A stretch of DNA of 24,280 nt from a virus, in IMG/VR virus record IMGVR_UViG_3300037537_000138, positions 1-24,280 of that record; one strand, 5' to 3'. Positions 1-21,244 of the stretch are shown here, piece by piece. Under the pieces are notes generated by a model. That model ran no database searches. It was not told the origin of the DNA and saw only the letters and a program-made list of their open reading frames with translations. Made by a program: the position numbers and the translations under genes. Within the stretch, counting starts at the first letter, position 1. Every line of letters starts with the position of its first letter.

Positions 1-509
1 TCTCGTACAGCTTTAACATTTTGAATAGCATCATCAGCGAAATAAAAATCATTATAACCTTCAGATAGTCTTTCAGCAACCCAATCAGCTTTTGCTTCAG
101 CTGTACCATTTTCTAAACCAGTTATATTATTTAGTGATATATTTAATCCTAATCCTTTAGCAAATTTTTGTATAGCCACTGCTGATTCTTGTGGTCTAGC
201 TGTTACTATAAATATATCTTTACTACCAAATTTCTTTTGTCTTTTTAAAGCTAAATCAAACAAAGGACCTTTTCTACCTTTTTTTACTTGAGTAAATTCT
301 GAAAAATCAAATATCGCACCCATTCTTTCTAATTCACCAGATCGTTTAGCAAACTCAGCAGGTGTTAATCTACCTGTATCTGGTATTCCTCCCCATCCTA
401 CTACAGCGGGGTTAAATCCACCATCAGGTAATCTTCTAGGTATTTTATATGTAACTCTAGAATCAGATATAGCCACTGTATCATCAAAATCTAATATAGT
501 TATACCTTT
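1..509 (-). other. HAD-superfamily phosphatase-like domain within the giant protein
   Basis: All four HAD motifs are readable in frame. Motif I is ILDFDDT, with nucleophile D2128 and acid/base D2130. Motif II is FIVTARP, with T2224 after a hydrophobic strand. Motif III is Lys 2261 in EAKADW. Motif IV is FYFADDA, with the acidic pair D2280-D2281. About 90 residues separate motifs I and II, enough for a C1-type cap. HAD enzymes with DxD in motif I are usually phosphatases or phosphotransferases acting through an aspartyl-phosphate. Every catalytic position is kept, so I infer an active enzyme; the substrate is unknown. The domain may continue past the left edge. Confidence 0.85.
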
Positions 510-3500
510 GCTTGGTTCACCAACTGCTTTATTAATTTTATCAAAAATAACAGCTTTATCAAATAAATCCTCATATTTAGTTTCGTCAATTATCTGTTTA
601 GTTCTATATGTTAAAAATTTATCACCATTCCAATCGTATATATTATTTACATCTTTACTAGGTAGTGCGTTAATTCTATCAATATCAAGATCTGGATTTG
701 ATTTACCTAATGCGTTATCTAAAGGTTTAACTATATTATAAAATGTACTTAATTGTGTAAATCCAATTAGTTGTTTTCTCAATTCATTTTTAATATTTAT
801 TCTTTTCGAACTAAATATAATTTGAGCAAGTCTAGATGTCATTGCTACATTGGCTAATAAATGTTCACCATATACTTTAGTTTCTTTGTCATTTAGTTGA
901 GTTTTAGTTCTTTTTAAACCATCAAGTGTTAATAAATCCCATGTACTTAAACCTCTAATACCATTTACTAAATTAGTTGATGCTTGTAATAAATGAAGAA
1001 TAGTCATCTTCATTGTTGGACTTTTACTATTTCTAGCTATTTTTCTGAATTCTTGAACAATGTATGTAAGCGCTATTTGATTTGCATTATTTATTACTGC
1101 TATATCATCTTTGTATTTTTCTGCTTTTTTCAATTGATTATCAATACCACTTACGCTAAATATATCTTGTAGTATCGTATTCATTTTACCTGTTTTTGAA
1201 TTCAATAATGTTATATGTTGTAATATAGCTTGTACATGGTTTGGTATTTTGCTATCCTTATTTTCAAGTATTATTTGTTTTATTTTTTGATGGCTTTCGG
1301 TATATGATGCTGTAATGTAATTACCATCTTCATCTATTTGATATACAGTAAGATCTTTACCTTTTTTACCATGTTTCTCAAAATACTCATCTTGAGCTTT
1401 TTTAGTTGCTTTTTTATCAACTTTTCTTGTAGCAGGATCTAAATAATCTTGCTGATAACCTAATATCTGAACGTCTCTAAATTTATTACCTTTATTATAC
1501 ATAATATATAATATCGGTGCTAATGCTTTTGCTATTGCTTTATTATCAAAAGCAACGCGATCTCTTGCGGTAGTTGTTAATCCTTTATTTGTCTTTGTAC
1601 CTAAATTTGTTTGTTCTTTAAATTCAGATAATAATTGTTGATCAAAACCTAAACCTTCTTCTGCTAAAGCTCGTGTGGTTAATAATTGTATAAAGAATCG
1701 ATTTTGTTTTAACCCATGTTTGGAAACGTCTTTTGCAATAGCAGCAATCCACGTAGGATATTGTGCCATTTCTTCAGGATGACGCCATTCATTTTCTTCT
1801 GTAATGACAAGCTTTACATCACTATTATATTTTTCTTCTATTATATTAACAACTTCTAATACTTGACTAATAAATGTATCACCTGCAATTCCTTCAGGAA
1901 TTAAATCTATAATATCTATATCTATAGTCCTATTATTTTTTATGAATTGGCCTTGGTCAAGTTGTAGTTCTATTTCAGAAGTAAAATTCTCTTGTAATAA
2001 AACATCTTTTGATTCATTATTACGTTTAAAAGCATCTAGTATTGATCCTTTACCCATTCTAGCTTGTTCTCTAAATAAATCAAAACCTACTTTATAAGCA
2101 ATTTGTTGGGATATGCTTTCTTTTTTCATACCTAAAGCTTTACCATTTTTTATAAAAATGTTTTCCCAAGCTTTATCATCAATTTCAAAATCAGGTTTTT
2201 TACGTATTATTTGGTGTCTAGCAGTTCTACCATGAACAGCTGCTATTTCTTTATCTATTACAGCTCCTTTTTTACCCCAAACAGTATAATCAACCCAATT
2301 AGGTGTGAATCCAACTAATTTATTTTTACCAGTTTTGTCATCTATTTCAAATACTTTTACTCCACCAACTGATTTTTGAACAGATTCTGGTAAGAATCTA
2401 GATAAAAATGTATCTGTAGCGTTATCAAGAATTTGTGTTTTATAGGTTTTTAGAAACTTTGCATAACTCTTATCAGACATTCTACCCAAAGCTTCTCTTA
2501 CAACTAAATCAGCTTGACCCATAAGTCGTTTTTTCAACTGTCTTGCAAAAGGTAATATTTTTTGATTTTTACTAATAGCTTCATATATCGTTTTATTGAT
2601 CGTTGCTACTTCTCTAGCGGTAATATCTATTATACTCTGTATAACTTCGGGGGCAAATATATCACTAGTTATTTTACCTTTTTCATCAACATTAACATAT
2701 GAATTATCACTTGCACTTAGTTCATCAAGACTAAATGTACTATTATCATCAGCTATCATATTGCCAATCTTAGGATCGTTTATATCTACTTCAAACTTAG
2801 GTTTTATAGCAACACCTTTTTTCTTTCCTGTTCCAAATATAACATTTAAACCTTTAAATTTTTTTGATCCCATTAACCAACCAAAGAAACTCTTATTATA
2901 TTGATCAAAGTTTATAGCATGTGGTAATAATTCTATATACATAGATTGTTTAAAATCTCTAAAAGCATCACTATCTATTCCAGGTAATACCACTCCTTCT
3001 TTTTGTGTTGTCCTAATAAATTCTGTTCTAATAGCATTATCTAATAAACCTTCGTCAAAAGCTTTAGTAAAAGCAACTTCATTTTTAATGTCATCTACAC
3101 CTTGAGTTTCACCTGGAGTTTCTTCAAATATTTTATCTACGGCTTCTTTATTAATGGTTTTACTTAATTTTTCAAGTCCTTCTTCTTCTTCTTCTGTTGC
3201 TGTTTTTATACCTTGTTGATTGCTTATGCTTCTTTGAAAATCAGATATAAATTTAAATACAGATTGATCTGAATCTAATTCCATCATCCATGTTAAATCA
3301 CCCATTACATTATTTACAAGTCCTCTAACAAAATCCCCAATACTTTTATTTTCTACAACATCATTTATATCTATAAAACCTAAAGCAATAGCATTATTTA
3401 TTTGTGCTAATATTTCTTCATAATTAGTATCTTTACCTTTTTGACGGTAACCATATTGTTCAAATTTTAAAATTAATGCGTTTAATGTTTTTTTGTTTTT

Positions 3501-6500
3501 AACACCTTTTAATTTTTGTCTTAATGTTTTTATAGCATCTCTTACAGCTTGTTTACCTTTTTTATCTAACTCACCATTTTTATCAACTATATTTGCGGCT
3601 TTATTTCTTAAGTGAAATAATTCTTCTAATGGAGTAGCTGCAGCATATAGTGCAAGTTCTCCAAAAATTTTCGATTTATTAATTAGATCAACCATAATAT
3701 TCTTATTGTTAACTAATATATCATTTTTACCGTTAATATCAAAAATAGTACCGTTACCTCTAGGTTTCCATTGTTGCTTACCATCTTTATCTAATGTGGT
3801 TGGTGTAAACATTCTATTTTTAGCAATTATTATTTCTGCATCACTATAACCCGCTTCTTTTAATTGTTTTTCTAAATCTTCTACGCTTTCTATATTATAA
3901 TAATTTCCATCATGTGTTGCTAGTACAACATCTTCAAAAAATTGATTAAGTCCAGCATAATATAAAAGCTCTGGGGTTTTGTATTTTTTAATAGCATCTT
4001 CATCAATTACTTTACCAAACACTCCTTTTAACTCTTTTATTTCTTGCTCAACTTTTTTCTCTAATTCTTTAGCTCTAGTTTCTAATATTGCATCTTTTTC
4101 ATTTGTTATTTCATCATAACTTTCTCTTAGTTTTTTTAGTTTTTCTTCACCTGTAGTTTTAATATTACCACTGTTACCTAAAGCAAGGGATTGATCACCA
4201 ATATGTTTTAATTGCATGTTCATATCAGAAACTTGCATAATTTCCTCATACGTTAATCCATACAATTTATTAAGAGACTTTGCGTCATCAAGTGCTAATG
4301 CTTTAGTAATTTCTCTTCTTTCCTTAATAGCTTCTTTTCTAGCTTCACCAATTAAACTAGGCATTTCTAAATTTATTATATCTAACTTTCTAGCATTTTC
4401 TGAATTTGTTAGGAATTCTTTTCTTATTCTAAAATCATTAATAAGTGTATTTCTTATAGTTCCACCAATCTTTGGAGCACCTATACCAAGAATTGTTACA
4501 GATGTATTAGCGAAGAAATCTCTATCAATACCTGTTACCATACTCTTATTTCTATCTTTCAAAACTGTTATATCAAAGAAATTATGAGTTAACTCTGTAC
4601 CAAGTTCCTCAAGATTTTCTATAGCTAAACCTGTTGTAAACACAGGGAATGCTCCTTTTGCAGAATTAACAACAAGTCCCACGGTAAAATTTGGTAAATT
4701 TCTATATGCTGTTCCTTTTAACTCATTAACCCCAACTCTATACATCATATCACCAGTTTCTTGCACCCATCTTAATGATCCAAATCTTTCAAATACAGCA
4801 GCAGAACCACCATAAGCATATGATGTAAATGCTTTTTGTGCAAAAGTATAATTACGCATTCTTTCTAAATCTATTATTTCTTCATTTATAATCCTTCTTT
4901 CTAAATCAGGTGTTAAAGGATCATCTCTTTTAGCATATTTAATATCTAAAGCTTCTAATGAAAACGCTTGATTTAACTCTAAATCTATAGCTTTACCACC
5001 AGTTTCTGCACCAAAAAACATTCCTACGGTTGTATTCATTGTATTTCTCTTTGTAATAGCAGCTTGTCGTAAAAGTTTTTTCTTAGCATTCTTTGTAATA
5101 CCTTTTTTAGCAGCAAGTTTAACAAGTTGAGCAGCCCTCATACCACCTACACCTGGAATAACACCTGTTACAATAGACGGCATATTGTTTGCTATAGCTT
5201 CTCCGAACCAATTCCAAAAACCTATTTTACCACCCTCATTTTCAAACATGTCTATATCGGCAAGTTTCAAATCCACAGGAATTTCATCCTCTCTAACTTG
5301 ATCTAATCTTTTATTATAATTTACTGAATATTCCCATATATCTTTACTAGCTGCATCTAAAATAATTTTACCACCATCACCCATCATAGCTAATTGAATA
5401 CCTCTTGGACTTAATCTCATTGCTGTATCTGCTATTAAAGCGCTACCACCTAATAATAATTCCCCAACAAAGAATTTTTCTAAAGAATGACCAGCTCTTT
5501 TACTCCAACTGTAATCTTTTCTTATAGCATCTTGTAGTATTTTTGCATCAGTAATTTCTCCTTTTTTATTATTAAATTGTTCTGCAAAAACATTATAATG
5601 TTGTTGATTTAATATAAAAGCTTCGTATAGTTCATGTATACCAGAATCTTGTATTTCATTAACTATATTAATTTGTTCGTTAACTAATTTATTATATTTT
5701 ATATTTTGTTCTTCAGTTGTTATATCACCTATAGCTTCAGCTTTTTTATTAATTTCTTCAAGACGCTTTTTATAGTCAAGTATACCTTTATCTTGTAGAT
5801 CTTGCCATTGGTTTAAAATAAGTTCATTTTGTGATTTTAACCAGCCGCGTGGGCTGTCTGGGGAGTCGCTGATAAACTTCTTTGCGTCTTCAGCGGTTGC
5901 AAATCCTATGTTATCAAACATATTCATTTGCTTTTGAATTTTCTCTGGAACATCTCTAAGATAGAGTTCCGCTTTTTTTCTAGCTAATATATTTTTATTA
6001 TCCTTTTCAATGTATGCTAATCTATTTTGGTCATATTCTGTTACTGGATCTATAATACCACCTTTTTTATAATTTGAATATTCTTGGTATTTTTCATCAT
6101 CATTAAAATAATTTTCTATAAAATTATCATATTCTTTATCTGAACCAAATTTATTAAATAAATTATCTCTTAAATCTTGAGTTTTTCTTTTAGCAATAGT
6201 AGTCGGCAATATTCCAGGAGTTGGTTTTTTAAGTTTTTCTTCTTTTAAAATTCGATTATATTCCTTCGTAATATATGCTCGTCTTTCACTTAGTAATTTA
6301 TTATCTTTGAGTTTATTTAATTTTGTATCTCTTGGTAACCATCCAACCTTAGCATCAAACATAAAATATCTATTAGCATCTGATTTGTCTAATTTTGTTT
6401 GTTCATCTTCACTTATTGCAAATGTAAATTCTTGTAACTTTAATTCTTCTGACTTAGCATCTTCATTTAACTGTTCTTGAATTTTAGTTATATACTCTCT

Positions 6501-6872
6501 TTTATGTTTTATTATATCACTAATGGTGATAGTTGATAAACCATATTTTTCTTTTCTCCATTTATTAAATTGTTGACGCTCATGTGCATATAAACTTTCT
6601 CTAAAATACTTAGTAACTTCATCATCACTTAATGCTTCTCCGTTTTCACCTTCTTTAGCGCCATGAACTTCATCATCAAACGTAATATCAGCCTTAGATA
6701 CAAGTGGATTTACCTCTTGTTCTACTTCTTCTTCTTCTACATTTACAGTTTCTTCTTGATTAGTCGTATCAGGATTTTCAACATCCCATGTTGCCATGAA
6801 TTCTAGTATCTCTTCTTCACTAAAACCTTGCTCGACTAAACTTTGAAGATATTTCAATCTTGCTTCGTTCAT
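1..6872 (-). CDS. Giant virion/ejection-type protein with C-terminal HAD phosphatase-like domain (3' end beyond window)
   Basis: The frame is open from an ATG at 6872-6870 to the left edge, giving 2290 residues with no stop; the C-terminus is outside the window. The N-terminus is acidic (Glu runs near residues 35-50) and mostly helical and Lys/Glu-rich. Hydrophobic, Gly/Ala-rich stretches lie near residues 467-482, 558-585 and 730-752, the last followed by ENLEELGTEL. A second Glu-rich patch lies near 1226-1232. At 1083-1087 the sequence EELFH looks like an HExxH zincin motif that lost its first His. Residues about 2122-2290 form a HAD-like domain, listed separately. The gene is last in a series resembling T7 genes 13-14-15-16, so I infer a large internal virion protein released with the DNA. 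I saw no lytic transglycosylase or RNA polymerase signature. The leader is AT-rich without Shine-Dalgarno; the previous gene ends 13 bases upstream. Confidence 0.85.
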   Translation of the reverse strand, partial: MNEARLKYLQSLVEQGFSEEEILEFMATWDVENPDTTNQEETVNVEEEEVEQEVNPLVSKADITFDDEVHGAKEGENGEALSDDEVTKYFRESLYAHERQQFNKWRKEKYGLSTITISDIIKHKREYITKIQEQLNEDAKSEELKLQEFTFAISEDEQTKLDKSDANRYFMFDAKVGWLPRDTKLNKLKDNKLLSERRAYITKEYNRILKEEKLKKPTPGILPTTIAKRKTQDLRDNLFNKFGSDKEYDNFIENYFNDDEKYQEYSNYKKGGIIDPVTEYDQNRLAYIEKDNKNILARKKAELYLRDVPEKIQKQMNMFDNIGFATAEDAKKFISDSPDSPRGWLKSQNELILNQWQDLQDKGILDYKKRLEEINKKAEAIGDITTEEQNIKYNKLVNEQINIVNEIQDSGIHELYEAFILNQQHYNVFAEQFNNKKGEITDAKILQDAIRKDYSWSKRAGHSLEKFFVGELLLGGSALIADTAMRLSPRGIQLAMMGDGGKIILDAASKDIWEYSVNYNKRLDQVREDEIPVDLKLADIDMFENEGGKIGFWNWFGEAIANNMPSIVTGVIPGVGGMRAAQLVKLAAKKGITKNAKKKLLRQAAITKRNTMNTTVGMFFGAETGGKAIDLELNQAFSLEALDIKYAKRDDPLTPDLERRIINEEIIDLERMRNYTFAQKAFTSYAYGGSAAVFERFGSLRWVQETGDMMYRVGVNELKGTAYRNLPNFTVGLVVNSAKGAFPVFTTGLAIENLEELGTELTHNFFDITVLKDRNKSMVTGIDRDFFANTSVTILGIGAPKIGGTIRNTLINDFRIRKEFLTNSENARKLDIINLEMPSLIGEARKEAIKERREITKALALDDAKSLNKLYGLTYEEIMQVSDMNMQLKHIGDQSLALGNSGNIKTTGEEKLKKLRESYDEITNEKDAILETRAKELEKKVEQEIKELKGVFGKVIDEDAIKKYKTPELLYYAGLNQFFEDVVLATHDGNYYNIESVEDLEKQLKEAGYSDAEIIIAKNRMFTPTTLDKDGKQQWKPRGNGTIFDINGKNDILVNNKNIMVDLINKSKIFGELALYAAATPLEELFHLRNKAANIVDKNGELDKKGKQAVRDAIKTLRQKLKGVKNKKTLNALILKFEQYGYRQKGKDTNYEEILAQINNAIALGFIDINDVVENKSIGDFVRGLVNNVMGDLTWMMELDSDQSVFKFISDFQRSISNQQGIKTATEEEEEGLEKLSKTINKEAVDKIFEETPGETQGVDDIKNEVAFTKAFDEGLLDNAIRTEFIRTTQKEGVVLPGIDSDAFRDFKQSMYIELLPHAINFDQYNKSFFGWLMGSKKFKGLNVIFGTGKKKGVAIKPKFEVDINDPKIGNMIADDNSTFSLDELSASDNSYVNVDEKGKITSDIFAPEVIQSIIDITAREVATINKTIYEAISKNQKILPFARQLKKRLMGQADLVVREALGRMSDKSYAKFLKTYKTQILDNATDTFLSRFLPESVQKSVGGVKVFEIDDKTGKNKLVGFTPNWVDYTVWGKKGAVIDKEIAAVHGRTARHQIIRKKPDFEIDDKAWENIFIKNGKALGMKKESISQQIAYKVGFDLFREQARMGKGSILDAFKRNNESKDVLLQENFTSEIELQLDQGQFIKNNRTIDIDIIDLIPEGIAGDTFISQVLEVVNIIEEKYNSDVKLVITEENEWRHPEEMAQYPTWIAAIAKDVSKHGLKQNRFFIQLLTTRALAEEGLGFDQQLLSEFKEQTNLGTKTNKGLTTTARDRVAFDNKAIAKALAPILYIMYNKGNKFRDVQILGYQQDYLDPATRKVDKKATKKAQDEYFEKHGKKGKDLTVYQIDEDGNYITASYTESHQKIKQIILENKDSKIPNHVQAILQHITLLNSKTGKMNTILQDIFSVSGIDNQLKKAEKYKDDIAVINNANQIALTYIVQEFRKIARNSKSPTMKMTILHLLQASTNLVNGIRGLSTWDLLTLDGLKRTKTQLNDKETKVYGEHLLANVAMTSRLAQIIFSSKRINIKNELRKQLIGFTQLSTFYNIVKPLDNALGKSNPDLDIDRINALPSKDVNNIYDWNGDKFLTYRTKQIIDETKYEDLFDKAVIFDKINKAVGEPSKGITILDFDDTVAISDSRVTYKIPRRLPDGGFNPAVVGWGGIPDTGRLTPAEFAKRSGELERMGAIFDFSEFTQVKKGRKGPLFDLALKRQKKFGSKDIFIVTARPQESAVAIQKFAKGLGLNISLNNITGLENGTAEAKADWVAERLSEGYNDFYFADDAIQNVKAVR

Positions 6873-6885
6873 AGGTTAAAATTAA

Positions 6886-8883
6886 TTATTTTTTCTTTTT
6901 TGCTGCTAAATCCTTATATCTTTTATTTAGCACAAGTAGTTTAGTTAAGTAAGCGCTTTCTTTCGCTGTAAGTACTTTACTTTTTGATATATTCTCTAAT
7001 CTATTCTTAACTTGCTCTGTATAATAAGGACTAGAATTTATAATATTCTGCCAGCTTTCATGGTTAGTACCTACATCTTCACCTTTAACCTTTTTATGCA
7101 TATCATTCGCAATAATACTTTCTATATTACCATCATTTAATATGAAATTAGTTCTAGCTATTGACCATCCACCACCTTCATCTAAGTAATCATCTTTTCT
7201 AGCATCAGATTGAATACCTAAAGCATCATATAGTTCTTTTACATCATTAGGTTTTGTTAAATCAAAAGTTGGCATATCAAAAGCTTCATCTTGATCAGCT
7301 AACGTAGCTTGTCTCTTTTTACCTGTTGCTTTACCATCCTTATCAAGAATATCAACCATAACAGGTACTTGTGTTATAGTACCGTCACTATCTGTAACTT
7401 CTTCATAGATTTTACCACCTTTTATAATACCAGTTCCTCTATAACTTAATGTTAATAAAACCTCTCCATTGTCACCTTGCTTAATATTATATTGTTCTAT
7501 AAACTTAATACCATCACTAGTTTGAATCCTTTTACCAACTAAACCACCTTCGTTACTAGTTACACCTATTATTTCACCAGTTTTAGTATCAGTTGCGCTT
7601 AATTGAGCAATTGTAGGAATACCACCAAACTGTTCACTTACTTGACTAATAACAGTCTTAGGATACTTACTTGGAGGATCTTCTTTGGTCTCTTTTATTG
7701 GTTCTTTTACCTCTTGTTGTCTAGGTGTCATTGCTCCATTACTAATAACTTGGGTAAGATAATCTTCAACCATTTTAGCGTGTATTGTTGGATCATATTT
7801 TACTTTATATCTACCACTTGTTTTACTATTTTCCCAATCAAAAGTTCCATCTTCATTAATCTTTGCTAATTTGCCATCTTTACCCACTGGTAACATATTA
7901 GAATATATCCAAGCCCCACCGAATTGACCTATAATACCTTGAGCTTTTTTTCTAGCTCCTTCTGCTTTAAATATATCTTGCTGTGGTATAGATATACCTT
8001 CAGGATGTCCTTCTCTATTTTTCCATGCTTTTATTTCAGCTGTTAATTCTTTACTAGAAGCCGTAATATCTGTAGTAATTGTATCTTTCTTATCTACATT
8101 ATCTTTAAACATACCAGAAGCAGCATGTAATTGACCTAAAGTAACATAGTGTTTTTTATTGTCTTGATCTCTATACCATATTCTTGGCACCTCAGTTTGA
8201 TTTTTATAAGATCTTTTAGCTTGACGTTTTGCTTTACCACCTTTCTTACCCATGATCTCATCCCATGTTTCATTATAACCACCTTCAAAATCAAAACCCC
8301 ATGGTAAATCACCTATTGGTTTTCCATCATCATCAAGTTCTATTTCTATACCTAAAGATGATAAAAACGCAGCAACATCGCTATTGTCAATTAATGCGTT
8401 ATAATCTATATTATCTTCATTTAATGTTTGTTCAGTACCAAATTCTGTAATTAGTTTTTTAATTTGTTGTTTATATGCACCAAGTGATTCTATTTGTTTA
8501 TTTAATTTCTTTTTTTCGTGTCGTGTCATATCAACGTAATCTTTCGGTTGACCTGCTCTCTCATGTTTTGTTACTCCATCCTCCATAAACTCAGGGTACG
8601 TAGCACGCGCTTCACTAATTGTTGTAGGTATAACTTCATTTTGACCTTTTGCTACATTATTAAAGTATTCATCCATGAATTTCACTTTCAAACTTTTTTC
8701 CGCTTCAATCATTTTAGCCATTCGGCCAATAGGTATTGAAGCATCTCTCCAAGATTTTTGTATAGCGTTACTTATATGTGCCCAATTAGGTTCTGTTGGA
8801 ACGTCACCTCTTCTATAAGGTCCCATGGGCATATCTGGTGATGGTCTAACATGTGGTCTCCATTGTTCTACTTGTATAGCCAT
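6886..8883 (-). CDS. Probable internal virion protein, 665 aa (position of T7 gp15)
   Basis: I do not recognise a named family. The protein is hydrophilic, with a Pro/Arg-rich start, charged helical segments (about residues 60-150, Lys/Glu/Gln-rich), an acidic patch around 165-190 and a basic Lys-rich end (AAKKKK). It has no signal peptide or membrane segment. It lies between an Ala-rich S74-carrying protein (2 bases upstream) and the giant ejection-type protein (13 bases downstream). T7 gene 15 (internal core protein, about 750 aa) holds the equivalent place before gene 16. A role in the internal core or DNA-ejection channel is inferred from order and size only; a tail-associated protein is the alternative. 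The start ATG follows an A/T-only leader. Confidence 0.55.
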   Translation of the reverse strand: MAIQVEQWRPHVRPSPDMPMGPYRRGDVPTEPNWAHISNAIQKSWRDASIPIGRMAKMIEAEKSLKVKFMDEYFNNVAKGQNEVIPTTISEARATYPEFMEDGVTKHERAGQPKDYVDMTRHEKKKLNKQIESLGAYKQQIKKLITEFGTEQTLNEDNIDYNALIDNSDVAAFLSSLGIEIELDDDGKPIGDLPWGFDFEGGYNETWDEIMGKKGGKAKRQAKRSYKNQTEVPRIWYRDQDNKKHYVTLGQLHAASGMFKDNVDKKDTITTDITASSKELTAEIKAWKNREGHPEGISIPQQDIFKAEGARKKAQGIIGQFGGAWIYSNMLPVGKDGKLAKINEDGTFDWENSKTSGRYKVKYDPTIHAKMVEDYLTQVISNGAMTPRQQEVKEPIKETKEDPPSKYPKTVISQVSEQFGGIPTIAQLSATDTKTGEIIGVTSNEGGLVGKRIQTSDGIKFIEQYNIKQGDNGEVLLTLSYRGTGIIKGGKIYEEVTDSDGTITQVPVMVDILDKDGKATGKKRQATLADQDEAFDMPTFDLTKPNDVKELYDALGIQSDARKDDYLDEGGGWSIARTNFILNDGNIESIIANDMHKKVKGEDVGTNHESWQNIINSSPYYTEQVKNRLENISKSKVLTAKESAYLTKLLVLNKRYKDLAAKKKK

Positions 8884-8885
8884 AA

Positions 8886-9758
8886 TTATATTCTTTTAAA
8901 TTCTACGTCTAATTCTGAATAATTTACTATATCATAACCATTAATACGTATAATGGCATGTTGCGGTATTTCATCAGACATAACGCCTTGGAATATTCCT
9001 TTACCAAATATTTTATTAATATATTTAAACGCATATATTTTTAATCCACTTGGTGAATATCCTATTAGTTTTATATTTTTCTTTAATCTTCGATCACTTG
9101 CACCATAAGTTTGAGCCGCAGATCCAATTGCTTGTGGTATTGCTTGTCCCCAAATTTGTAAAGACTGTCCATGTAGTTGGTTTGCTGCTGACCTATGTCC
9201 AACTTCTAATCCTGCTAATCTATCTAACTGTTGCATTTCTCGTTTTTCTCGAGTATTAAATGTCCAAGCTCTACCTTCTGTTGTCATTGCTTGCATTCTT
9301 CTAGATTCACCTATTCTTAATCCCATAGCATCTTGTTCTCCTTGCGCTTTTAATTGTGCATTCTTAGCTTCTTGTTGTTCTATACCAGCAGAAATACCTC
9401 TTTTAGCACCTAATACACCTTGAGCTAAAGCTGTAGCTCCACCACCACCCATACCAAACGCTTTCATTTGATCTAATGTATTAGCTAATGATATATCAAC
9501 TTGTTCCGCCTCAAATTGAGCTGCTTCTGTAGCAACTTGTAAACTAGCGAATGGATTAGAGACCATTGATCCCAAACTTGCCATTTGATCGTAAGGATTA
9601 ATTACTTCTTGTCTAGTTTCTTCGGCTATTGCTAGTCTTGCAGCAGCGTCATCCGCTTGCTCATCTCGTTTTTTTGCTCGTTTTTTTGCTTGTACCGCAG
9701 TGACGATAGAACTCGCAAGAGATGCTACCCCAACTGCTATTGCTGTGTATAATGCCAT
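8886..9758 (-). CDS. Ala-rich internal virion-type protein with C-terminal S74 chaperone/autoprotease domain, 290 aa
   Basis: Residues 1-22 form a hydrophobic Ala/Val/Ser segment, followed by a basic patch (KKRAKKR) and a long Ala/Gln/Glu-rich helical region to about 215 with a Gly run (GMGGGG). This composition and position resemble T7 gp14, the small internal protein that inserts in the outer membrane. The last 70 residues start SDRRLKKNIKLIG and contain GKGIFQGVMSDE and GYDIVNYSELDVEFKRI, a short form of the intramolecular chaperone of endosialidase (peptidase S74). In that family a Ser-Lys pair five residues apart cuts just before the Ser. Here S221 and K226 match, so cleavage between A220 and S221 is predicted. 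The domain identity is well supported; the gp14-like role is inferred. Confidence 0.8.
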   Translation of the reverse strand: MALYTAIAVGVASLASSIVTAVQAKKRAKKRDEQADDAAARLAIAEETRQEVINPYDQMASLGSMVSNPFASLQVATEAAQFEAEQVDISLANTLDQMKAFGMGGGGATALAQGVLGAKRGISAGIEQQEAKNAQLKAQGEQDAMGLRIGESRRMQAMTTEGRAWTFNTREKREMQQLDRLAGLEVGHRSAANQLHGQSLQIWGQAIPQAIGSAAQTYGASDRRLKKNIKLIGYSPSGLKIYAFKYINKIFGKGIFQGVMSDEIPQHAIIRINGYDIVNYSELDVEFKRI

Positions 9759-9763
9759 AATTT

Positions 9764-10162
9764 TTAATTTATTACTTTTGTCATTTCGTAAGATGGTTTG
9801 TCATCAACTAACCATCCTAATTTTTTATGTGTTTCTATTAAATGTTTATTTCTACCTATTGAAAATATATATGTAATGCCTTGATCTTTTAACATATTTT
9901 CTGCTGATACAATTAAAAGTTCTATAGCCTTTGATCTATCTTCTTCTCTATATTCTGGATTAGATACAATCCATTCAAGTAAAGCACCTTTTGAATTTGT
10001 TATATAAATATAACAAGATACTATACTTACATCACCTTTCTCAACTATTAACCCGGTTGGTGGTAAATTTTCTTTTGGTATAACAGGCCATTTCCATTTT
10101 GCCCACCATTGTGATATAGTTTTATAGTCCTCATCACGAAGACGTCTTACATTTAATTTCAT
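9764..10162 (-). CDS. Small GNAT-fold acetyltransferase-like protein, 132 aa
   Basis: The start MKLNVRRLRDEDY (strand, then helix) is typical of GNAT N-termini. LEWIVSNPEYREEDRSKAIELLI fits the motif A strand-loop-helix, and the end has the usual helix plus LGW seen in motif B. In active enzymes the loop reads (Q/R)xxGx(G/A) and binds the acetyl-CoA pyrophosphate. Here it is R72-E-E-D-R-S77, with Asp and Ser in place of Gly and Gly/Ala, so CoA binding is doubtful. T7 gene 13, about 138 aa, lies at the same point before genes 14-16. A virion or assembly role is plausible; protein acetylation of the host is the alternative. The gap to the upstream gene is 10 bases. Confidence 0.75.
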   Translation of the reverse strand: MKLNVRRLRDEDYKTISQWWAKWKWPVIPKENLPPTGLIVEKGDVSIVSCYIYITNSKGALLEWIVSNPEYREEDRSKAIELLIVSAENMLKDQGITYIFSIGRNKHLIETHKKLGWLVDDKPSYEMTKVIN

Positions 10163-10172
10163 TTTATTTTAT

Positions 10173-11567
10173 TTATTTTGACGATAATATTACTTCACTA
10201 CTTCCACCAAATAATTCAGCTTTTTTAGCTGTAGCACCCTCTGTAGGTTCCCAATATCTAAATTCAAATTCTCCATAATAACCTTTTAATCCAGTTGTAT
10301 TAAAATAAGTATTATCTTGAAACATATCAACTGCTTTATTTCTTAATTCACTAAAGTATTTACCTTCTTTTTTAACAAAACCAATTGTTTCACCATCAAT
10401 ACTAGTCGATTCTTTTGGTATTTTATAAGCGTCATTTACATTATCATATGTATCATAACCAGTGATAGCATAACCACCTGTATTAAAACTCTCCATAGTC
10501 CAACCAGTGGTACCTTCATAATTAATAGTTAAAAAGTTTTTAATAAGATCTGGTTTATCATTTAATATTGTTTTTATATAAACTGGATCAGGGAAACTTA
10601 CTGCTCCATCAAGAACACCATCGGGTTCTTCATAAAATTTAGCTCTTGGAATAGTAGTATCATAATGTTTAAACATATTTTGACCAATTAATGTTTTATT
10701 TGGCCATGTATAATATTCATTATGTAAACTAACACCAAATGTTGGTTTAAATGTATAAAAACTAACCCAACCTTGTACATTCTCATCAAAAGCTAATGTT
10801 CTATATTCAGTTACAGCTGTATCTATTTCTGGAGAATTACCTGAAGCTTTACTAAGTATTCCACCATCAATTGTAGAACCTTGCAATGAAATAAAATATT
10901 TTTGTTTTTGTTCATCAAAGGATCCATATATATTATCACATAAAACTAGGTGATCTTTAAAAAAGTCTTTCATACCATATACAGATATAGGTGTTATACC
11001 ATCTTGTGATAACCTACAAACCACCCCTCTATATTGATCTGCAAAATATTTCCTATTACCAAATACTGCAAAACTTTCTGGATTTTTACTTATTCCAAAT
11101 TTTCCAGCATAAGGTGTAATTTGACCTATAATATTAGCACCAGAGGTTGTTATCGATTGACCTTCAGCAGTATAAATAGCATCTTTATCTATAAGAGCCC
11201 TATTAACTTTGTTTTCTTGAAAGATATTTAAATTAGTATCTTCAGCGTGTAATTTTTGTATACTACCTTGAGCTATATCAACAGCTCTTGTAATTTCTTC
11301 ACCAATAGGGAATTGATTTAATTCATTAAATTCAGTTCTAGAATTAAATATTCCACTATGTATCATGGCATTTGGTCTTTGGTATTCATCATATTTTTCA
11401 CTTACAATGTGAGCTCTAGCACCGTAATCCATACCTACACCATTAAATTCACCTTTTATTCTAGATTCTTCTATATGCCATTTACCAGTATCTTCAGTTG
11501 GTCCTGCCCCAACGCCACCAGCGATGACTATCGAATTAAAATACGCTATTTCTAATGTTACTGCCAT
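10173..11567 (-). CDS. Tail protein, probable propeller half of the tail nozzle, 464 aa
   Basis: The protein is rich in aromatic, Gly and Thr residues in short alternating strands, without signal peptide, membrane segment or Cys-rich region. Landmarks are GVGMDYGARAHIV with a nearby RPNAMIHSGIF, a stretch around residues 110-200 reading NIFQENKVNRALIDKDAIYT and then GKFGISKNPESFAVFG, and RLSQDGITPISVYGMKDFF. The pattern of an external-value check, a reference strand and 'is the surface here' loops recalls the beta-propeller of T7 gp12/P22 gp10-type nozzle proteins. This is structural intuition, not a matched family. It directly follows the 1265-residue tail protein (19 bases), whose N-terminus also looks nozzle-like, so the two may build one nozzle. 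It precedes the GNAT-like gene. Confidence 0.55.
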   Translation of the reverse strand: MAVTLEIAYFNSIVIAGGVGAGPTEDTGKWHIEESRIKGEFNGVGMDYGARAHIVSEKYDEYQRPNAMIHSGIFNSRTEFNELNQFPIGEEITRAVDIAQGSIQKLHAEDTNLNIFQENKVNRALIDKDAIYTAEGQSITTSGANIIGQITPYAGKFGISKNPESFAVFGNRKYFADQYRGVVCRLSQDGITPISVYGMKDFFKDHLVLCDNIYGSFDEQKQKYFISLQGSTIDGGILSKASGNSPEIDTAVTEYRTLAFDENVQGWVSFYTFKPTFGVSLHNEYYTWPNKTLIGQNMFKHYDTTIPRAKFYEEPDGVLDGAVSFPDPVYIKTILNDKPDLIKNFLTINYEGTTGWTMESFNTGGYAITGYDTYDNVNDAYKIPKESTSIDGETIGFVKKEGKYFSELRNKAVDMFQDNTYFNTTGLKGYYGEFEFRYWEPTEGATAKKAELFGGSSEVILSSK

Positions 11568-11586
11568 TTATTTATTTTTAAATATT

Positions 11587-14500
11587 TTAACATGATGAAC
11601 AAGTTCCCTCATCATTATTTAACGCTCCATCAACAACATACCACCTATGATTATTATAACCAAATACCCACCATCCCACTGTACCTGCGAATAATTTAGT
11701 TGTTTCAGCAGCATCTATATATAATATATTATTATAATGAACAGCTGTTGTTGTTGGTGCTGTCAATGCTGTACCTTGAGCGGCATAAATTGTATAAGAT
11801 GGAACAATACCACACATTGCATATTCACAAGCCGTATCTTCACTTTCATTTGACCAACCTCCTAAAGGAAGACTATCTAATTTTGTTGCTGTAAATGTAT
11901 TTGAAGCGCTTAATCCACCATCATCCGTGACCTTTAAGTCTAACGCTGCCGTTGTAGCAACACCAGGAAATATTGTACTTTCATTAGCCGCATAATCAAT
12001 ATTCGTTGTTACCCTCATTGTTCCTTGAGATGGTTGATCTACAGTAAGACCTGTAACCGCACCACCTGTAGATGGATAAGATAAATAACTAGTAGGTGTT
12101 AAATATTTTTGTCTTAATAATGTGTTGGCAGATCCATTAAACGCTTGAACACTTCCAACCACTACTCCACTACTTGATCCTGTAGGAATATTACCAGAAC
12201 CAGAATTTACAGCCGGAGAAAAGTTTGTTACTGAAACATCAAAATCCGCTGTAGTTGTTGCGGTATCACCATCTTGTGATGCTTTAATAGTTAATGTAAA
12301 TGTATCTTTCCCCGATAAGCTAGTGTGTGCAAATAAAGCATCGGTTCTTACTTCCCAATCACTAGAGTTAAGAACAATAGCAAAAGAACTTGTGTATGGA
12401 TTACCATTTCCATCAACAGCATTTAATAATTCAAAACTACTAATACTACCAGATGTAGCTGTAGCAGTTAATACACCTATTTTTGTTCCAGATGCTTCAT
12501 TTTCTACCCAAGTGGTAGCGTCTATCGCAACATCTTCTGGACCTCCAGACGCATTAGCAATCATTTCATTTAAATCATGTAATAAACCTCCAGTAGATGT
12601 TTCCCAAAATATATCAATATTTGATTTTACTGGTTCTGTTTCAAATACTGTTAAACCGTCAACATTAGCATAAGGATAACCAAGGGGTGTATTGGTACCT
12701 TCTACACTAGGATTAATATCTACATCACCCAATGTCACTGCTACTTGTTCAGTTCTTAAATTAGGTAATTCAGCAACCATTGGATTTTTATCATTATCAC
12801 GTACAAATTTATAAACCCTAACCCTAGCTGCACCAGTATCTGCTTCATTCACATCACTTGATAATCCTTGCTCAATTGCAGAACCTATACTTATAACATC
12901 CATATATTCTTGATCTACATTACCAATTACAGATTTGTAAGTTGGTGTATCTCCAGAATCTGCACCTTGTACTATTTTAGGATAAAGTCTAACTTCACTA
13001 CCTGCGATACCTTCTAATGTTCTATCACTTTCATGCACTGATCTAGGAACTTTATTTATATTATCACCATATAATGTTAACCACGATCTACCACTCTGAC
13101 TCACATCTTCATCACCACCAATTGTATTAACACCTGTACTTGTAAAACGTTTTGTTGTCCATGAGTTAGCTGGATGATTAGCGTATACATTATAATAATC
13201 TTGTTCTGTTTGTTTTACAACTAATCGCCAAGAATACCAACCATGAGGATTGGTAGCTATAGCATATAATTTTGAAGCTTCTACAACTCTCGAATCATTA
13301 AAAGTTATATTTAATGATCTACCATATGCTGCTTGAAGAGCACTCCAACTATATAGTTTAAACGATAACGTAATACTTGATAAATTAGCGGCGATTGATA
13401 TAGTTAAAGTAGTTGAACTTATAGCAGAAACCACTGTTCCAACAGTTATACCAGTACCTGTTATTGATTGACCTACTTCAATAAGACTATTAGCACCAGT
13501 TAAAGTAACTGTTGTTGATGAGCCAGTAGTACTACCCACTTGTGTAGTAACCGTAAACTTGTTTGCTAAATCATCTACTATAGCACCCACCGTTGTTGTG
13601 TCAGATAAATCTGAAGCCGAGTGTGTTGATAAAATAACTGGTGATTGTCTACCCCATCTGTCTGATAATACAACACCAACTTGATATGTTCTTCTTTGTT
13701 TTATATTATGGTATTTATATGTATTAAAAGTATTTTGTAAAACACCACTAATTAGAGCAAATTCATTATCACCTTTCCAATTGTGAGATGTTGTAAAATC
13801 AATACCTTTTCTATTATTTGTGTCTAATGGTAATTCGTAATTTTGTGTTATATTACCATAAATAAGTCTATTGGATATAAGTTCTTGAGCTTTAGCACGT
13901 ACAGGTATTTTATCACTAACCCTTATTAATTGTTTTTCAGGTAAAACCTTATATGGTTCTTTAGAATTGTATGTATATTTTACCGCCTGTCTATAATATA
14001 GTTGTTTAAATATTAATGATACACCATCACCCACTGTTATACCATCATTTAATGTTATAATATTAGTACTCGTGTTTACACCTGTCACGTAAAGTCTACC
14101 TGCAGAACCTAATATTGATGTACTCAGACGATCAAGTACCCAATCAGTTCCAACTACTTCACCTGCAGCATCTACATCATCAACTTTTAATGTTTCATCA
14201 TCAGTGTGTATTCCATCTGTTACAACAGTTGAATTATCTACTGATACTCCATATGATTCAATAGTTGCACTTCCTAGAGCATTCATGTCTATAGTATCAA
14301 TTAATCTTATTGCTAAACCATTTGATTCTTTTACTAATATTTCAATTTTACTTATTTTAAATGGATTACTATAAGTTGAACCTGGGTTTGCACCACCTTG
14401 AAATTCATTGATATTTGGTATAGGTATACGCATTATGACTTTATTATATGCGTTTTGCATAATAGGTAAAGTTGTATTTTCCCAAACATCTTCTACACTT

Positions 14501-15384
14501 ACAGGAACTTTAGGTTCATCACCCGTGCCTGTATCAGCAGTTGTAGAATTAATTTGATCTGGAGCCTGTTCTAAAATACCTGCATTTAAAGGTTTAAATA
14601 CAGATTGTGTAAAAGGTGATATAATTGAATATTGTCCATCACTAAATTTATATCTATATGCAAATCTAATAAATTTATCTTGCATATATTTAGATTCAAC
14701 ATCACCATCTCGAAGTAATGTTGTACCATCTCCTCTTGAGTATGCTGCATCTCCAACAACTACGTTTGTTTCATTTAAAAAAGGTTCTTGATATGGTGCT
14801 ATTTTTGCAACACCAATTTTTTCTTCACAATCATAATAACCTGCATCATAAGATGCGCTATTTGGATCAGCTATATTTAGATCAACTCCTCTTGGTTGGT
14901 TATAATCATCTGTCCAATATAAATAATTTTCAATAACATTAATACCTGTAATTAACTTTTTTTTATTAAAATTCAAATATCTTCCAGTAACAATTTCTAC
15001 AGGTTCAGCACTACCATCTTTCATAATGATACTACAATAATGAGTTACCCCAGTTCTTTCCATTGTAACTATATTTGCTTCAGAATCACTACTAAAATTA
15101 GTTGTAAACCAAAATATCCTATTTTTTGGCGTATCAACATAAGCACCTATAGTAGTATCACCAGAACTATTTCCACTTGGTTCGCTAGCGCCTAACGGCC
15201 AATCGATTTTATTATTATATGCTAATTTGTTTCCTAATATATTTTCAACAGCACCAACATCAGAATCTTCACTATTAGAAATTTGTACATTTTGAGCCTC
15301 CCTATATTCACCTTTAGGTATTAATCTTTCATCAAGATCTTTGTTCATTCTACCTTTAACAAAATAATTTTTTATTTCTGGCAT
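11587..15384 (-). CDS. Large tail nozzle/stabilisation-type protein with bead, cadherin-like and Cys-containing C-terminal domains, 1265 aa
   Basis: The N-terminus (MPEIKNYFVKGRMNKDLDE..., then GEYREAQNVQISNSE and VENILGN) is of the type seen at the start of P22 gp10/T7 gp12-like tail proteins in marine phages. Around 495-510 a segment NRLIYGN suits a propeller blade. Residues about 610-680 form a Thr/Ser/Gly bead with VGQSITGTGITVGT. Residues about 945-1055 look cadherin-like: a strand-rich repeat with GTKIGVLTATA, then TFTLTIKASQDGD and VSVTNFSPAV. The last 85 residues have four Cys (two near 1183-1188, two in the final GTCSSC) and aromatic-rich YIDAAET and WYVVDG segments, like fibre tips. 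The role is tail shaft or nozzle with attached receptor-facing domains. The start is 4 bases after the previous stop. Confidence 0.7.
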   Translation of the reverse strand: MPEIKNYFVKGRMNKDLDERLIPKGEYREAQNVQISNSEDSDVGAVENILGNKLAYNNKIDWPLGASEPSGNSSGDTTIGAYVDTPKNRIFWFTTNFSSDSEANIVTMERTGVTHYCSIIMKDGSAEPVEIVTGRYLNFNKKKLITGINVIENYLYWTDDYNQPRGVDLNIADPNSASYDAGYYDCEEKIGVAKIAPYQEPFLNETNVVVGDAAYSRGDGTTLLRDGDVESKYMQDKFIRFAYRYKFSDGQYSIISPFTQSVFKPLNAGILEQAPDQINSTTADTGTGDEPKVPVSVEDVWENTTLPIMQNAYNKVIMRIPIPNINEFQGGANPGSTYSNPFKISKIEILVKESNGLAIRLIDTIDMNALGSATIESYGVSVDNSTVVTDGIHTDDETLKVDDVDAAGEVVGTDWVLDRLSTSILGSAGRLYVTGVNTSTNIITLNDGITVGDGVSLIFKQLYYRQAVKYTYNSKEPYKVLPEKQLIRVSDKIPVRAKAQELISNRLIYGNITQNYELPLDTNNRKGIDFTTSHNWKGDNEFALISGVLQNTFNTYKYHNIKQRRTYQVGVVLSDRWGRQSPVILSTHSASDLSDTTTVGAIVDDLANKFTVTTQVGSTTGSSTTVTLTGANSLIEVGQSITGTGITVGTVVSAISSTTLTISIAANLSSITLSFKLYSWSALQAAYGRSLNITFNDSRVVEASKLYAIATNPHGWYSWRLVVKQTEQDYYNVYANHPANSWTTKRFTSTGVNTIGGDEDVSQSGRSWLTLYGDNINKVPRSVHESDRTLEGIAGSEVRLYPKIVQGADSGDTPTYKSVIGNVDQEYMDVISIGSAIEQGLSSDVNEADTGAARVRVYKFVRDNDKNPMVAELPNLRTEQVAVTLGDVDINPSVEGTNTPLGYPYANVDGLTVFETEPVKSNIDIFWETSTGGLLHDLNEMIANASGGPEDVAIDATTWVENEASGTKIGVLTATATSGSISSFELLNAVDGNGNPYTSSFAIVLNSSDWEVRTDALFAHTSLSGKDTFTLTIKASQDGDTATTTADFDVSVTNFSPAVNSGSGNIPTGSSSGVVVGSVQAFNGSANTLLRQKYLTPTSYLSYPSTGGAVTGLTVDQPSQGTMRVTTNIDYAANESTIFPGVATTAALDLKVTDDGGLSASNTFTATKLDSLPLGGWSNESEDTACEYAMCGIVPSYTIYAAQGTALTAPTTTAVHYNNILYIDAAETTKLFAGTVGWWVFGYNNHRWYVVDGALNNDEGTCSSC

Positions 15385-15388
15385 TTAA

Positions 15389-16543
15389 TTAACTTTTTAT
15401 TTGCTTAGATTTACCCCTCATTACTTGGGTAATCTCTGCTATTTTTAAATTAGATAATCTTAGTTTAGCATTCCTCATTGCTGCTCTTCGTTCTTTTCTA
15501 TATCTATTTATTATATATTCAGGAACAGTTATCCTTGTTGATAATAAATTAAAAACCAATGATTTATACACTGCATCTTCTGCAAATTTATGTACTTTCA
15601 TTTCTCCATCAGTACCTAAACCGTCAGATATATATTTTAAAGTAATTATTTTTTCTTTTAAATCACTACTAAAAGATATTTTACCATTTAATTCATCTAT
15701 TATAAATACACCATTTTGTTGTGCTGTTTCAGGATTTAATCCATATCTAAGACCTAGATTACTAGGTACTCTATTTAAATACTCATCAGGACTATTTAAA
15801 TTACCAGCTATATTACCTAATTGAAAATCTTGAAAATACTCACTAGTTAACGAATCACCTGTTAACAAATCACCTTCTGATGAAAATAAATAATCATAAT
15901 CAGAATCTTGTAATATTGATTCACTTGGTTTTGATGTTATTCTACTAGGATATATTATATGTTCAATACCAGCTAAATCAACCCATGATAATCTAACATA
16001 ATTTATATAATCTTGTGGCATTGGTATTGATAAACTTGGACCAACATCAATTTCTTGAATTTTTTCAACTCGACCTATATCATAACTAAATTCTTGTATA
16101 CATCGTTTAGTGTGAAATAATACTTCAGATCTTTTTACTGTGTTTATTAATTTACCATCCCCTACATAACCTATCATAAAATTATTAACTATATCTTTTA
16201 AAGATATATATCTATAATCCCCAAATATTTGTGTTAATAGTAATGCAATAACTGTATCGGTTTCAGCTATAGTTATACTATCAGATAAAGTTGATGTTAC
16301 ATTATCTACAGTTTTTTGAGTAAACGTGATTACCCCTGAAGCATAAGTATAATTATCTCTATCTTGTTCTTGACCATTTAATGTTACAATAAATTCACTT
16401 TCATTAGCTGGTGTGTGTGTGAAATCGGAATCAAACGTATATATAGCTCTTGGTATACTACCACTTATAGCACCTTCTGAACCTAACCATTTGTGTTTGT
16501 TATTGTAATATTGATAATGTGTTGTTGATCCTAATAGTCCCAT
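15389..16543 (-). CDS. Head-tail connector/tail tubular A-like protein with inserted surface domain, 384 aa
   Basis: After MGLLGSTTHYQYY the chain enters a segment (about residues 20-105) that reads like a fibre or bead domain: FIVTLNGQEQDRDNYTYASG followed by VITFTQ. The presumed core then begins with FGDYRYISLKDIVNNFMIGYVGDGKLI, followed by a helical stretch with EVLFHTKRCIQEFSYD and MPQDYINYVRLSWVD. This core pattern is familiar from adaptor/tubular-A-type proteins of marine podoviruses. The C-terminus is basic and helical (RYRKERRAAMRNAKLR), suited to contact the portal or DNA. The gene lies between another connector-type gene (2 bases upstream) and the nozzle-type gene. The function is inferred from pattern and order; the inserted domain is my interpretation. 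Confidence 0.65.
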   Translation of the reverse strand: MGLLGSTTHYQYYNNKHKWLGSEGAISGSIPRAIYTFDSDFTHTPANESEFIVTLNGQEQDRDNYTYASGVITFTQKTVDNVTSTLSDSITIAETDTVIALLLTQIFGDYRYISLKDIVNNFMIGYVGDGKLINTVKRSEVLFHTKRCIQEFSYDIGRVEKIQEIDVGPSLSIPMPQDYINYVRLSWVDLAGIEHIIYPSRITSKPSESILQDSDYDYLFSSEGDLLTGDSLTSEYFQDFQLGNIAGNLNSPDEYLNRVPSNLGLRYGLNPETAQQNGVFIIDELNGKISFSSDLKEKIITLKYISDGLGTDGEMKVHKFAEDAVYKSLVFNLLSTRITVPEYIINRYRKERRAAMRNAKLRLSNLKIAEITQVMRGKSKQIKS

Positions 16544-16545
16544 AT

Positions 16546-17580
16546 TTATTGTGCTTTAATTTGTGCGTTTGTTTGTGCTATTTGAGATGTTAATTGAGTT
16601 ATATCTGCTTGTTTCATAACTACTCCAGCCATACCCATTACGGCAAGTAGTAAATTTGTTTCTTCTTGTGGATGTAATTCAAAATTAGTTGAACCTTGTG
16701 TGGTTGTTAAATAAATATCTTCTGTTCTTAATGTTAAAACTAAATCATCAGCTCCAGTCCAACCTAACGCGTTTGATATAGTTATTGTATCACCCACAGC
16801 AAAACCTGAACCCACTATATTAACTATTACTGCAGTTACAGCACCACTACTTATTGTTAATGTTATACTAGCACCAGTACCACTACCACTTGTTGTTACT
16901 CCACTAGTTGTACCAACTATTATTGTTTGCGTACTCTCCATTAAACCTGAATTACCACCAGTTACAATACCTGTATCATTTGTACCTAATATTATACCAT
17001 AAGCAACATAAGGATTTGAATCATATATATTAGTACCATACGTTGCATTTCTAGTATATCCCCATCGTGGATCCGTTGGTACTTTAATATAATCAAGTGT
17101 TGCTGTTGTAATACTTGTAGGGTTAACTTGTATTGAAGTTGCTCCAGAAGAAGTTGTTGTTTTATAGTATATCGGATAATCTGTACTTGGTTTTGTCAAA
17201 GGAGATGACGATAAGTAAGGAAGTTCGTGTTTATCAACTAATTCAAATAGTAATGTTCTATCACTATTTATTAGTTCTATTATTTTATATATATCGGTTG
17301 GTAAACTACCAACACCTGTATCTAAAGTTACTGATGCTGTTTTGTAAAAAGCATCTATTTTTTCTTTTATTTTTGAGGGAGCGTCAGCATAACCTAAATT
17401 GGTTCTACCAATTGCATCAAGTTGCAACATTTTATTATACTCTGCAAATGCTATATCTAATAATTGCATTTGTGCTTGTCTAGCTATTTTATTAAATTCA
17501 TCGGGAGTTAAATAACCTCTTTGTTCTTTATTTAAAACCGATAAAACTGTTTTATATACTGTGTTTACGTTTATAGCCAT
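16546..17580 (-). CDS. Connector/tail-tube-type protein with inserted bead domain, 344 aa
   Basis: I start it at the ATG at 17580. An in-frame GTG at 17607 would add nine residues, but that codon lies inside a long hairpin stem and the ATG has the usual A-rich leader. The N-terminal half is helical (VYKTVLSVLNKEQRGY, then PDEFNKIARQAQMQLLDIAF). A middle part has the conserved-looking LDYIKVPTDPRWGYT, and the end is FELHPQEETNLLLAVMGMAGVVM plus a Gln-rich helix. Between these, about residues 195-290 form a Gly/Ser/Thr/Val bead with GASITLTISSGAVTAVIV and VGSGFAVGDTITIS, a repeat type often seen on phage surfaces. It is probably a head-completion or tail-tube ring. Confident as a gene, moderate on role. 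Confidence 0.65.
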   Translation of the reverse strand: MAINVNTVYKTVLSVLNKEQRGYLTPDEFNKIARQAQMQLLDIAFAEYNKMLQLDAIGRTNLGYADAPSKIKEKIDAFYKTASVTLDTGVGSLPTDIYKIIELINSDRTLLFELVDKHELPYLSSSPLTKPSTDYPIYYKTTTSSGATSIQVNPTSITTATLDYIKVPTDPRWGYTRNATYGTNIYDSNPYVAYGIILGTNDTGIVTGGNSGLMESTQTIIVGTTSGVTTSGSGTGASITLTISSGAVTAVIVNIVGSGFAVGDTITISNALGWTGADDLVLTLRTEDIYLTTTQGSTNFELHPQEETNLLLAVMGMAGVVMKQADITQLTSQIAQTNAQIKAQ

Positions 17581-17590
17581 AATTTCTTTT

Positions 17591-17631
17591 TTTATAGTAG
17601 TAGTCACCCAATAGAGTGACTACTCTATAAA
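17591..17631 (-). promoter_or_regulatory. Long intergenic RNA hairpin before the connector gene
   Basis: On the minus strand TTTATAG + AGTAGTCAC pairs with GTGACTACT + CTATAAA, giving 16 base pairs with one bulged A and an eight-base loop (TCTATTGG). A shorter, mutually exclusive hairpin (ATAGAGT, loop AGTC, ACTCTAT) uses the 5' half. The stem ends about 10 bases before the ATG of the connector gene. No T-run follows, so it is not an ordinary terminator. An RNase III-type processing site, a translation-control element or mRNA end protection are possible. Confidence 0.7.
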
Positions 17632-17637
17632 GTGTTA

Positions 17638-18453: not shown

Positions 18454-18470
18454 GATATAATATAATTAAA
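18454..18470 (-). promoter_or_regulatory. Leader motif TTTAATTATATTAT before the 271-aa gene
   Basis: The 14 bases at 18457-18470 (minus strand TTTAATTATATTAT) end three bases before the ATG. They are identical in sequence and spacing to the motif before the scaffold gene at 21214-21227. No Shine-Dalgarno sequence is present. It could be a translation enhancer of the A/T-rich Bacteroidota kind or part of a promoter; the sequence alone does not decide. Confidence 0.5.
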
Positions 18471-18478
18471 AAGTTATT

Positions 18479-18515
18479 AAAAATAAAGGCTAGGCGCCGA
18501 AGCGCCTAATCTTTA
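18479..18515 (-). terminator. Intrinsic terminator with UUCG tetraloop downstream of the capsid gene
   Basis: On the minus strand TAGGCGC-TTCG-GCGCCTA forms seven perfect pairs closed by the very stable C(UUCG)G loop. It extends outward through a G-U wobble and one mismatch to a further five pairs (TAAAG with CTTTA). A run of five T follows. It begins 11 bases after the capsid stop codon. It is the only clear intrinsic terminator in the window and one of very few GC-rich spots. It should let the capsid transcript end here while some transcription reads through into the connector and tail genes. Confidence 0.9.
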
Positions 18516-18525
18516 AATATTTATT

Positions 18526-19971: not shown

Positions 19972-19995
19972 TTTTTGTTAATTTTAAAATGTTAA

Positions 19996-21227: not shown

Positions 21228-21244
21228 TAATTAAAAAATTTCTT

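Follow-up and report, generated by a model that had tools for sequence, protein, structure and literature searches.

A predicted HAD phosphatase domain within a giant polyvalent-type protein of an uncultured marine podovirus

The giant open reading frame and its gene neighbourhood

The window, i.e. the whole stretch of DNA that was analysed, is an entire virus record of 24,280 bases, and its features described here all lie on the minus strand. The head/neck cassette (15389..24280, minus strand) encodes, in minus-strand order, the C-terminus of the terminase large subunit, the portal protein, a 404-aa protein, a capsid-type protein and several virion structural proteins. It is followed by a group of genes (6886..15384, minus strand) with products of 665, 290, 132, 464 and 1265 amino acids, of which the 464-aa and 1265-aa proteins are structural and the 132-aa protein matches PHROG 17252; the order of these neighbours is kept in relatives with a flank long enough to be compared. 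The last gene is a giant open reading frame (3..6872, minus strand) that runs through 2290 open codons from 6872 to 3, where the record ends. The encoded protein, of polyvalent type, thus has at least 2290 amino acids and its C-terminus is cut by the contig end; complete homologues continue for approximately 650-750 amino acids beyond the domain described below.

The 290-aa protein (8886..9758, minus strand) matches PHROG 6121, a virion structural protein family (E 2.2e-7), and ends in the stretch SDRRLKKNI, which is weakly matched by the S74 endosialidase chaperone model (E 0.086). The cultured portal proteins closest to that of the window phage are those of Elemovirus, Pervagoviridae, Pachyviridae and related phages. 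Contigs of the same phage group (L090-L104) have been binned in metagenome-assembled genomes labelled Alphaproteobacteria, Woesearchaeota, Aliivibrio, Ilumatobacteraceae and others, and the HAD domain of one of them, L090, is 100 % identical to that of L001, the nearest complete relative of the window protein. The labels of these bins probably reflect binning contamination and are not evidence of the host.

HAD motifs and their conservation

The HAD phosphatase domain occupies 3..530 (minus strand, approximately residues 2115-2290) of the giant open reading frame, and its C-terminal edge is incomplete, the contig ending after motif IV. An earlier note on this DNA had described four HAD motifs, in frame and in HAD order, and all four were confirmed. 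Motif I (ILDFDDT, residues 2126-2132; 477..497, minus strand) contains the nucleophile D2128, the general acid/base D2130 and T2132, motif II (FIVTARP, residues 2221-2227; 192..212, minus strand) contains T2224 and the invariant R2226, motif III is Lys2261 (90..92, minus strand), and motif IV (FYFADDA, residues 2276-2282; 27..47, minus strand) contains D2280 and D2281. An insert of approximately 15 residues (2152-2166; 375..419, minus strand) between motifs I and II is missing in most relatives. Among 5000 shuffled versions of the giant protein with its composition retained, 65 also matched a deliberately loose four-motif HAD pattern, and the motifs alone are therefore suggestive, not proof. 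The identification as a HAD phosphatase was backed instead by homologues, by profiles and by a confident predicted fold.

When viral contigs were searched with the final 206 residues of the window protein, 566 candidate stretches were obtained, 558 of which encode relatives, and 80 of these were taken for reading. Where complete, the open reading frames that contain the HAD domain correspond to about 2,050-3,660 amino acids, with the domain approximately 810-1,000 amino acids ahead of the C-terminus. All catalytic residues were invariant in the first 77 sequences. When approximately 141-145 distinct copies were compared, the two aspartates and the threonine of motif I, the threonine and arginine of motif II and the lysine of motif III remained invariant, motif I reading DFD[DEQG]T in 141 of the 141 distinct copies that cover it, and the aspartate pair of motif IV was present in 144 of 145, the exception being a decayed copy (L127). 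The earlier statement that the catalytic residues are all kept thus applies to the window, where they are intact, and to nearly all family copies compared.

No other part of the window protein comes near the HAD domain in conservation, its mean majority-residue fraction, computed per 50-residue block, being 0.47-0.78 compared with 0.08-0.26 elsewhere. Identity between L057 and L067 was 0.989 in the HAD domain and 0.444 in the N-terminal flank, and between L002 and L003 it was 0.908 and 0.247, respectively, with 92 % in the C-terminus. These differences suggest a constant module of HAD domain and C-terminus joined to a fast-changing N-terminus that would be rapidly replaced. In close pairs dN/dS of the HAD domain was low (e.g. 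0.016/0.492 for L075/L076). The HAD domain is thus genuine, has kept its integrity and evolves under purifying selection. It was matched once in 10 of 12 tested records, and in the other two a single domain was found in two pieces with a kinase between them. No match was obtained with tblastn of the window protein (P0001) or of the HAD consensus in 50,697 phage records, nor a HAD match with the window domain or the family profile among PDB sequences.

Profile and fold comparisons

Among 62 family members, 56 matched PHROG 415, which is named polynucleotide kinase (best 1.4e-10), 52 matched DUF2608 (best 3.5e-7) and 18 matched a Pfam HAD family (best 3.4e-4). The profile search that had been proposed as a check was thus positive for the homologues, whereas the window copy alone had no match in Pfam.

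Structure prediction, proposed at the same time, was carried out on L001, which is 65 % identical to the window protein over the aligned part. The AlphaFold model of its HAD domain (pLDDT 89.7, pTM 0.81) resembled many HAD proteins (Z 9-12.8). After VIA re-ranking of the PDB matches the 3'-phosphatase of T4 Pnkp came first (Z 12.8, rmsd 2.6, 127 aligned residues) and Pnkp1 of the Pnkp1-Rnl-Hen1 RNA repair complex scored 12.2; the top five (Z 12.8, 12.2, 12.1, 11.9 and 11.6) were nucleic-acid 3'-phosphatases, with the next rows within 2 Z units. In addition to the fold, the domain has in common with T4 Pnkp (PseT) and Pnkp1 the DxDxT motif, the lysine, the aspartate pair and an invariant arginine two residues past the serine or threonine of motif II. 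The clearest BFVD matches of the model were long uncharacterised proteins of uncultured viruses, which by their predicted fold evidently belong to the same family.

The domain is not filed here as a Pnkp phosphatase. Alignment of the HAD family with T4 Pnkp by hhalign was weak and covered 32 columns around motif I only. R176 and D254 of T4 Pnkp are, we assume, essential phosphatase positions; matched by spacing and by the motif I alignment, the position of R176 held R or K in 42 of 77 sequences and that of D254 held D in 2 of 74. Since these positions appear not to be kept, the domain is described here more broadly, as a predicted active HAD phosphatase, an assignment that is well supported by the conserved residues and the modelled fold.

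An exchangeable position and a nested kinase

With the conserved C-terminus alone as query, 80 loci were obtained. The HAD domain precedes the C-terminus in 62 of them; 18 lack it, some of these being truncated. A P-loop kinase stands in place of the HAD domain in three of the 80 (L113, L116 and L117). On these counts the HAD domain is the commonest occupant of what the loci present as an exchangeable 'effector' position ahead of the C-terminus. Other, mostly unidentified sequence was seen in the same place in L115, L124, L131, L144, L147, L149, L151, L152, L156, L165 and L182.

A P-loop kinase was also found nested within the HAD domain, between motifs I and II, in L138 and in ten contigs detected with the L138 kinase as query, on one of which L138 itself lies (loci L138, L189-L197 and L200). 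The short insert that the window has of its own lies between the same two motifs, and no kinase was seen there. The kinase was above the Pfam cut-off for AAA_33 (1.4e-16) and Zeta toxin (2.2e-11). Its profile ranked entries listed as 'Metallophosphoesterase', which we take to be the kinase domain of Clostridium thermocellum Pnkp (CthPnkp), at E 2.8e-4, with Zeta at 0.004 and T4 polynucleotide kinase at 0.08 behind them, so that the best match among solved structures is a bacterial Pnkp kinase. One BFVD relative bears the name UDP-N-acetylglucosamine kinase. A kinase partner, present here in a minority of relatives and matching both Pnkp and Zeta, may be a further likeness to T4 Pnkp and Pnkp1. 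In the window family the kinase lies within the HAD domain and not N-terminal to it, and the HAD domain itself is part of a giant virion-type protein of 2-3.6 thousand residues.

The HAD fold and superfamily are already known. Neither the HAD domain as a common occupant of a virion-effector position nor a kinase nested in it was found in the open-access literature that was searched.

Similarity to polyvalent and other virion cargo proteins

A zincin motif, HExx(x)H, was present in the first three quarters of 63 of 65 giant proteins, compared with 0.8 % of shuffles, and is kept in 63 of 64 relatives. The window protein, one of the two giants without it, has a degenerate copy of HExxH, EELFH (residues 1083-1087; 3612..3626, minus strand). 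As EELFH is at least two base changes away from HELFH, the broken motif does not result from a single sequencing error.

The conserved C-terminus of approximately 680 amino acids was predicted to be all-helical (pLDDT 82.7). Its model resembled BFVD proteins named PolyVal ART, LPD (large polyvalent protein-associated domain), MuF-C and nuclease, with E values of about 1e-4 to 1e-7. No neighbour was found in the PDB (best Z 4.2) and no convincing family in Pfam or PHROG; one relative had a sub-threshold match to LPD14. The giant protein of L017 had a sole match, weak and in the C-terminus, to Tenacibaculum phage Gundel_1, and scanning viral contigs with the C-terminus of Gundel returned the Gundel-type record only.

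With these features the giant protein looks like a virion cargo protein of the 'polyvalent' type. In a survey of polyvalent proteins the zincin peptidase is the commonest domain and injection with the DNA is proposed (Iyer et al. 2017, PMC5512222). Polyvalent proteins are very large multidomain proteins encoded among virion genes, with zincin HExxH motifs and exchangeable enzymatic domains, as in the family studied here, and the helical C-terminus of this family has a fold likeness to BFVD proteins named PolyVal ART and large polyvalent protein-associated domain. The window copy has lost the zincin motif, which is not obligatory in this class. In the window family the HAD domain is the commonest occupant of a fixed position. 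A kinase nested in a HAD domain is absent from the passages of the survey that were read, and the terms 'phosphatase', 'HAD superfamily' and 'polynucleotide kinase' do not occur in its main text (PMC5512222). Another likeness is to the giant cargo proteins of Crassvirales (C1, C2 and the virion RNA polymerase), which belong to podoviruses of Bacteroidota, are likewise giant late products and, according to a review, probably leave the virion together with the DNA or before it (PMC10136315). The cultured portal proteins closest to that of the window phage are, however, not from Crassvirales, and the window protein has a HAD domain instead of a polymerase.

The same gene order was found in Flavobacterium elemo phages, Cellulophaga phages phi38:1 and phi13:2, Maribacter phage Panino and the Manatee Spring podovirus. 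In these cultured or complete phages the structural cassette also ends in a giant protein, several of which are annotated as structural. Those of elemoF and the Manatee Spring podovirus contain an HExxH motif, as do the relatives of the window protein, and the Manatee Spring protein has one segment in common with L030 (E 1.8e-42). In contrast to the window protein, none of the elemo, phi38:1, phi13:2, Panino and Manatee giants has a HAD domain or a detectably homologous C-terminus; the HAD domain is therefore not needed for ejection as such. Flavobacterium phage elemoF (L083) has a small stand-alone gene annotated as a HAD family hydrolase (8121-8474), and its giant protein has no HAD domain. 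The description of the giant protein as 'ejection-type' in the earlier note is supported indirectly by the gene order of cultured Bacteroidota podoviruses and by the polyvalent-like C-terminus, but it finds no parallel in a HAD domain of the cultured giants, and the interpretation given in that note is supported in part. The zincin motif of the family, the exchangeable position and the nested kinase lay outside what the note had in view. On these grounds, packaging and ejection of the giant protein are well-founded inferences.

Possible role of the HAD domain

The explanation that we prefer, with a probability of roughly 0.7, is that the window, from an uncultured marine podovirus with relatives among phages of Flavobacteriia, encodes a probably active HAD phosphatase within a virion cargo protein of the polyvalent type. 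The unvarying helical C-terminus of approximately 680 amino acids probably has a role in packaging or ejection, the N-terminal 1500-2000 or so amino acids vary and as a rule include a zincin metallopeptidase motif, and the position between them is filled by a HAD, kinase or other domain. Most likely the protein is packed in the head and ejected together with the DNA or before it, and the HAD domain would then dephosphorylate a substrate of host or phage origin during the first minutes of infection, a period that virion-delivered enzymes decide. A phosphatase that keeps its active site invariant across hundreds of contigs of uncultured marine phages, and that a Pnkp/Zeta-like kinase can replace or interrupt, suggests a specific early task, possibly repair of nucleic-acid ends against host nucleases. 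The domain is compact (approximately 200 amino acids) and open to direct expression and assay.

Our best guess for the substrate, a tentative one, is the 3'-phosphate end of a cut nucleic acid, which would be healed as by T4 Pnkp. In T4, end healing follows cleavage by a host anticodon nuclease (PMC2610378). Two independent comparisons, the fold of the HAD domain and the profile of the kinase, each point to the healing of nucleic-acid ends, and healing could allow damage by host nucleases to be repaired before phage genes are expressed. The full proposal, an injected end-healing enzyme consisting of a HAD 3'-phosphatase in a giant virion protein and, in some members, a nested kinase, which would repair host-nuclease cuts before phage expression, is less likely than not. 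End healing is a lead, and small-molecule phosphorylation of the Zeta type fits the kinase almost as well.

It is also conceivable, at less than even odds, that the delivered HAD domain acts on a small molecule such as a nucleotide, a nucleotide alarm signal or a sugar nucleotide or cell-wall precursor, the kinase being Zeta-like or UDP-GlcNAc-kinase-like. The kinase score above the Zeta toxin cut-off and the name of the BFVD relative fit such a substrate, as do the 96 residues between motifs I and II in L001 (D23 to T119), which leave room for a small cap. The 3'-phosphatases in the first five fold ranks speak against it, although the following rows are close, as do the name of PHROG 415 and the ranking of the CthPnkp entries over Zeta.

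It is improbable that the domain is a protein phosphatase delivered to modify a host regulator, in the manner of the injected HAD effectors of intracellular bacteria. The top Foldseek rows of the L001 model in the PDB were the HAD effectors Ceg4 and Lem4, with Eya2 among the first rows, but these matches were weak (E 0.003-0.03, TM about 0.3-0.4) and VIA re-ranking placed Pnkp first. We give similarly little credence to an unpackaged giant protein, which would work inside the cell as an ordinary enzyme and share its transcription with structural genes, considering its place as the closing gene of the structural cassette, where cultured relatives have giants annotated as structural, the N-terminal diversification and zincin motif of the kind known from polyvalent proteins (PMC5512222), and the resemblance of the C-terminus to annotated polyvalent proteins. 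Least likely is that the HAD domain serves the virion protein structurally or in regulation, without catalysis, which would agree with the cultured relatives that have no HAD domain and with the other sequence found in its place in some relatives, but not with the invariance of the catalytic residues, the low dN/dS and the single clearly decayed copy.

With regard to the preferred phosphatase and its possible end-healing role, 25 related records were searched for ligases. No match to the T4-type RNA ligase (PF09511) was found in the 25 records, the controls being equally without a match, so that this result does not show the ligase to be absent. PF09414 reached the cut-off in one of the 25, at a site where the DNA ligase model matches as well; a tRNA-repair set of kinase, phosphatase and RNA ligase is therefore not established. 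A gene of the ATP-dependent DNA ligase type was above the cut-off in 17 of the 25 records. In the record of L149 (G019) the ligase match (21686-22261, minus strand) crosses seven TGA codons, one TAG and one TAA, and could represent a decayed gene or a frameshift.
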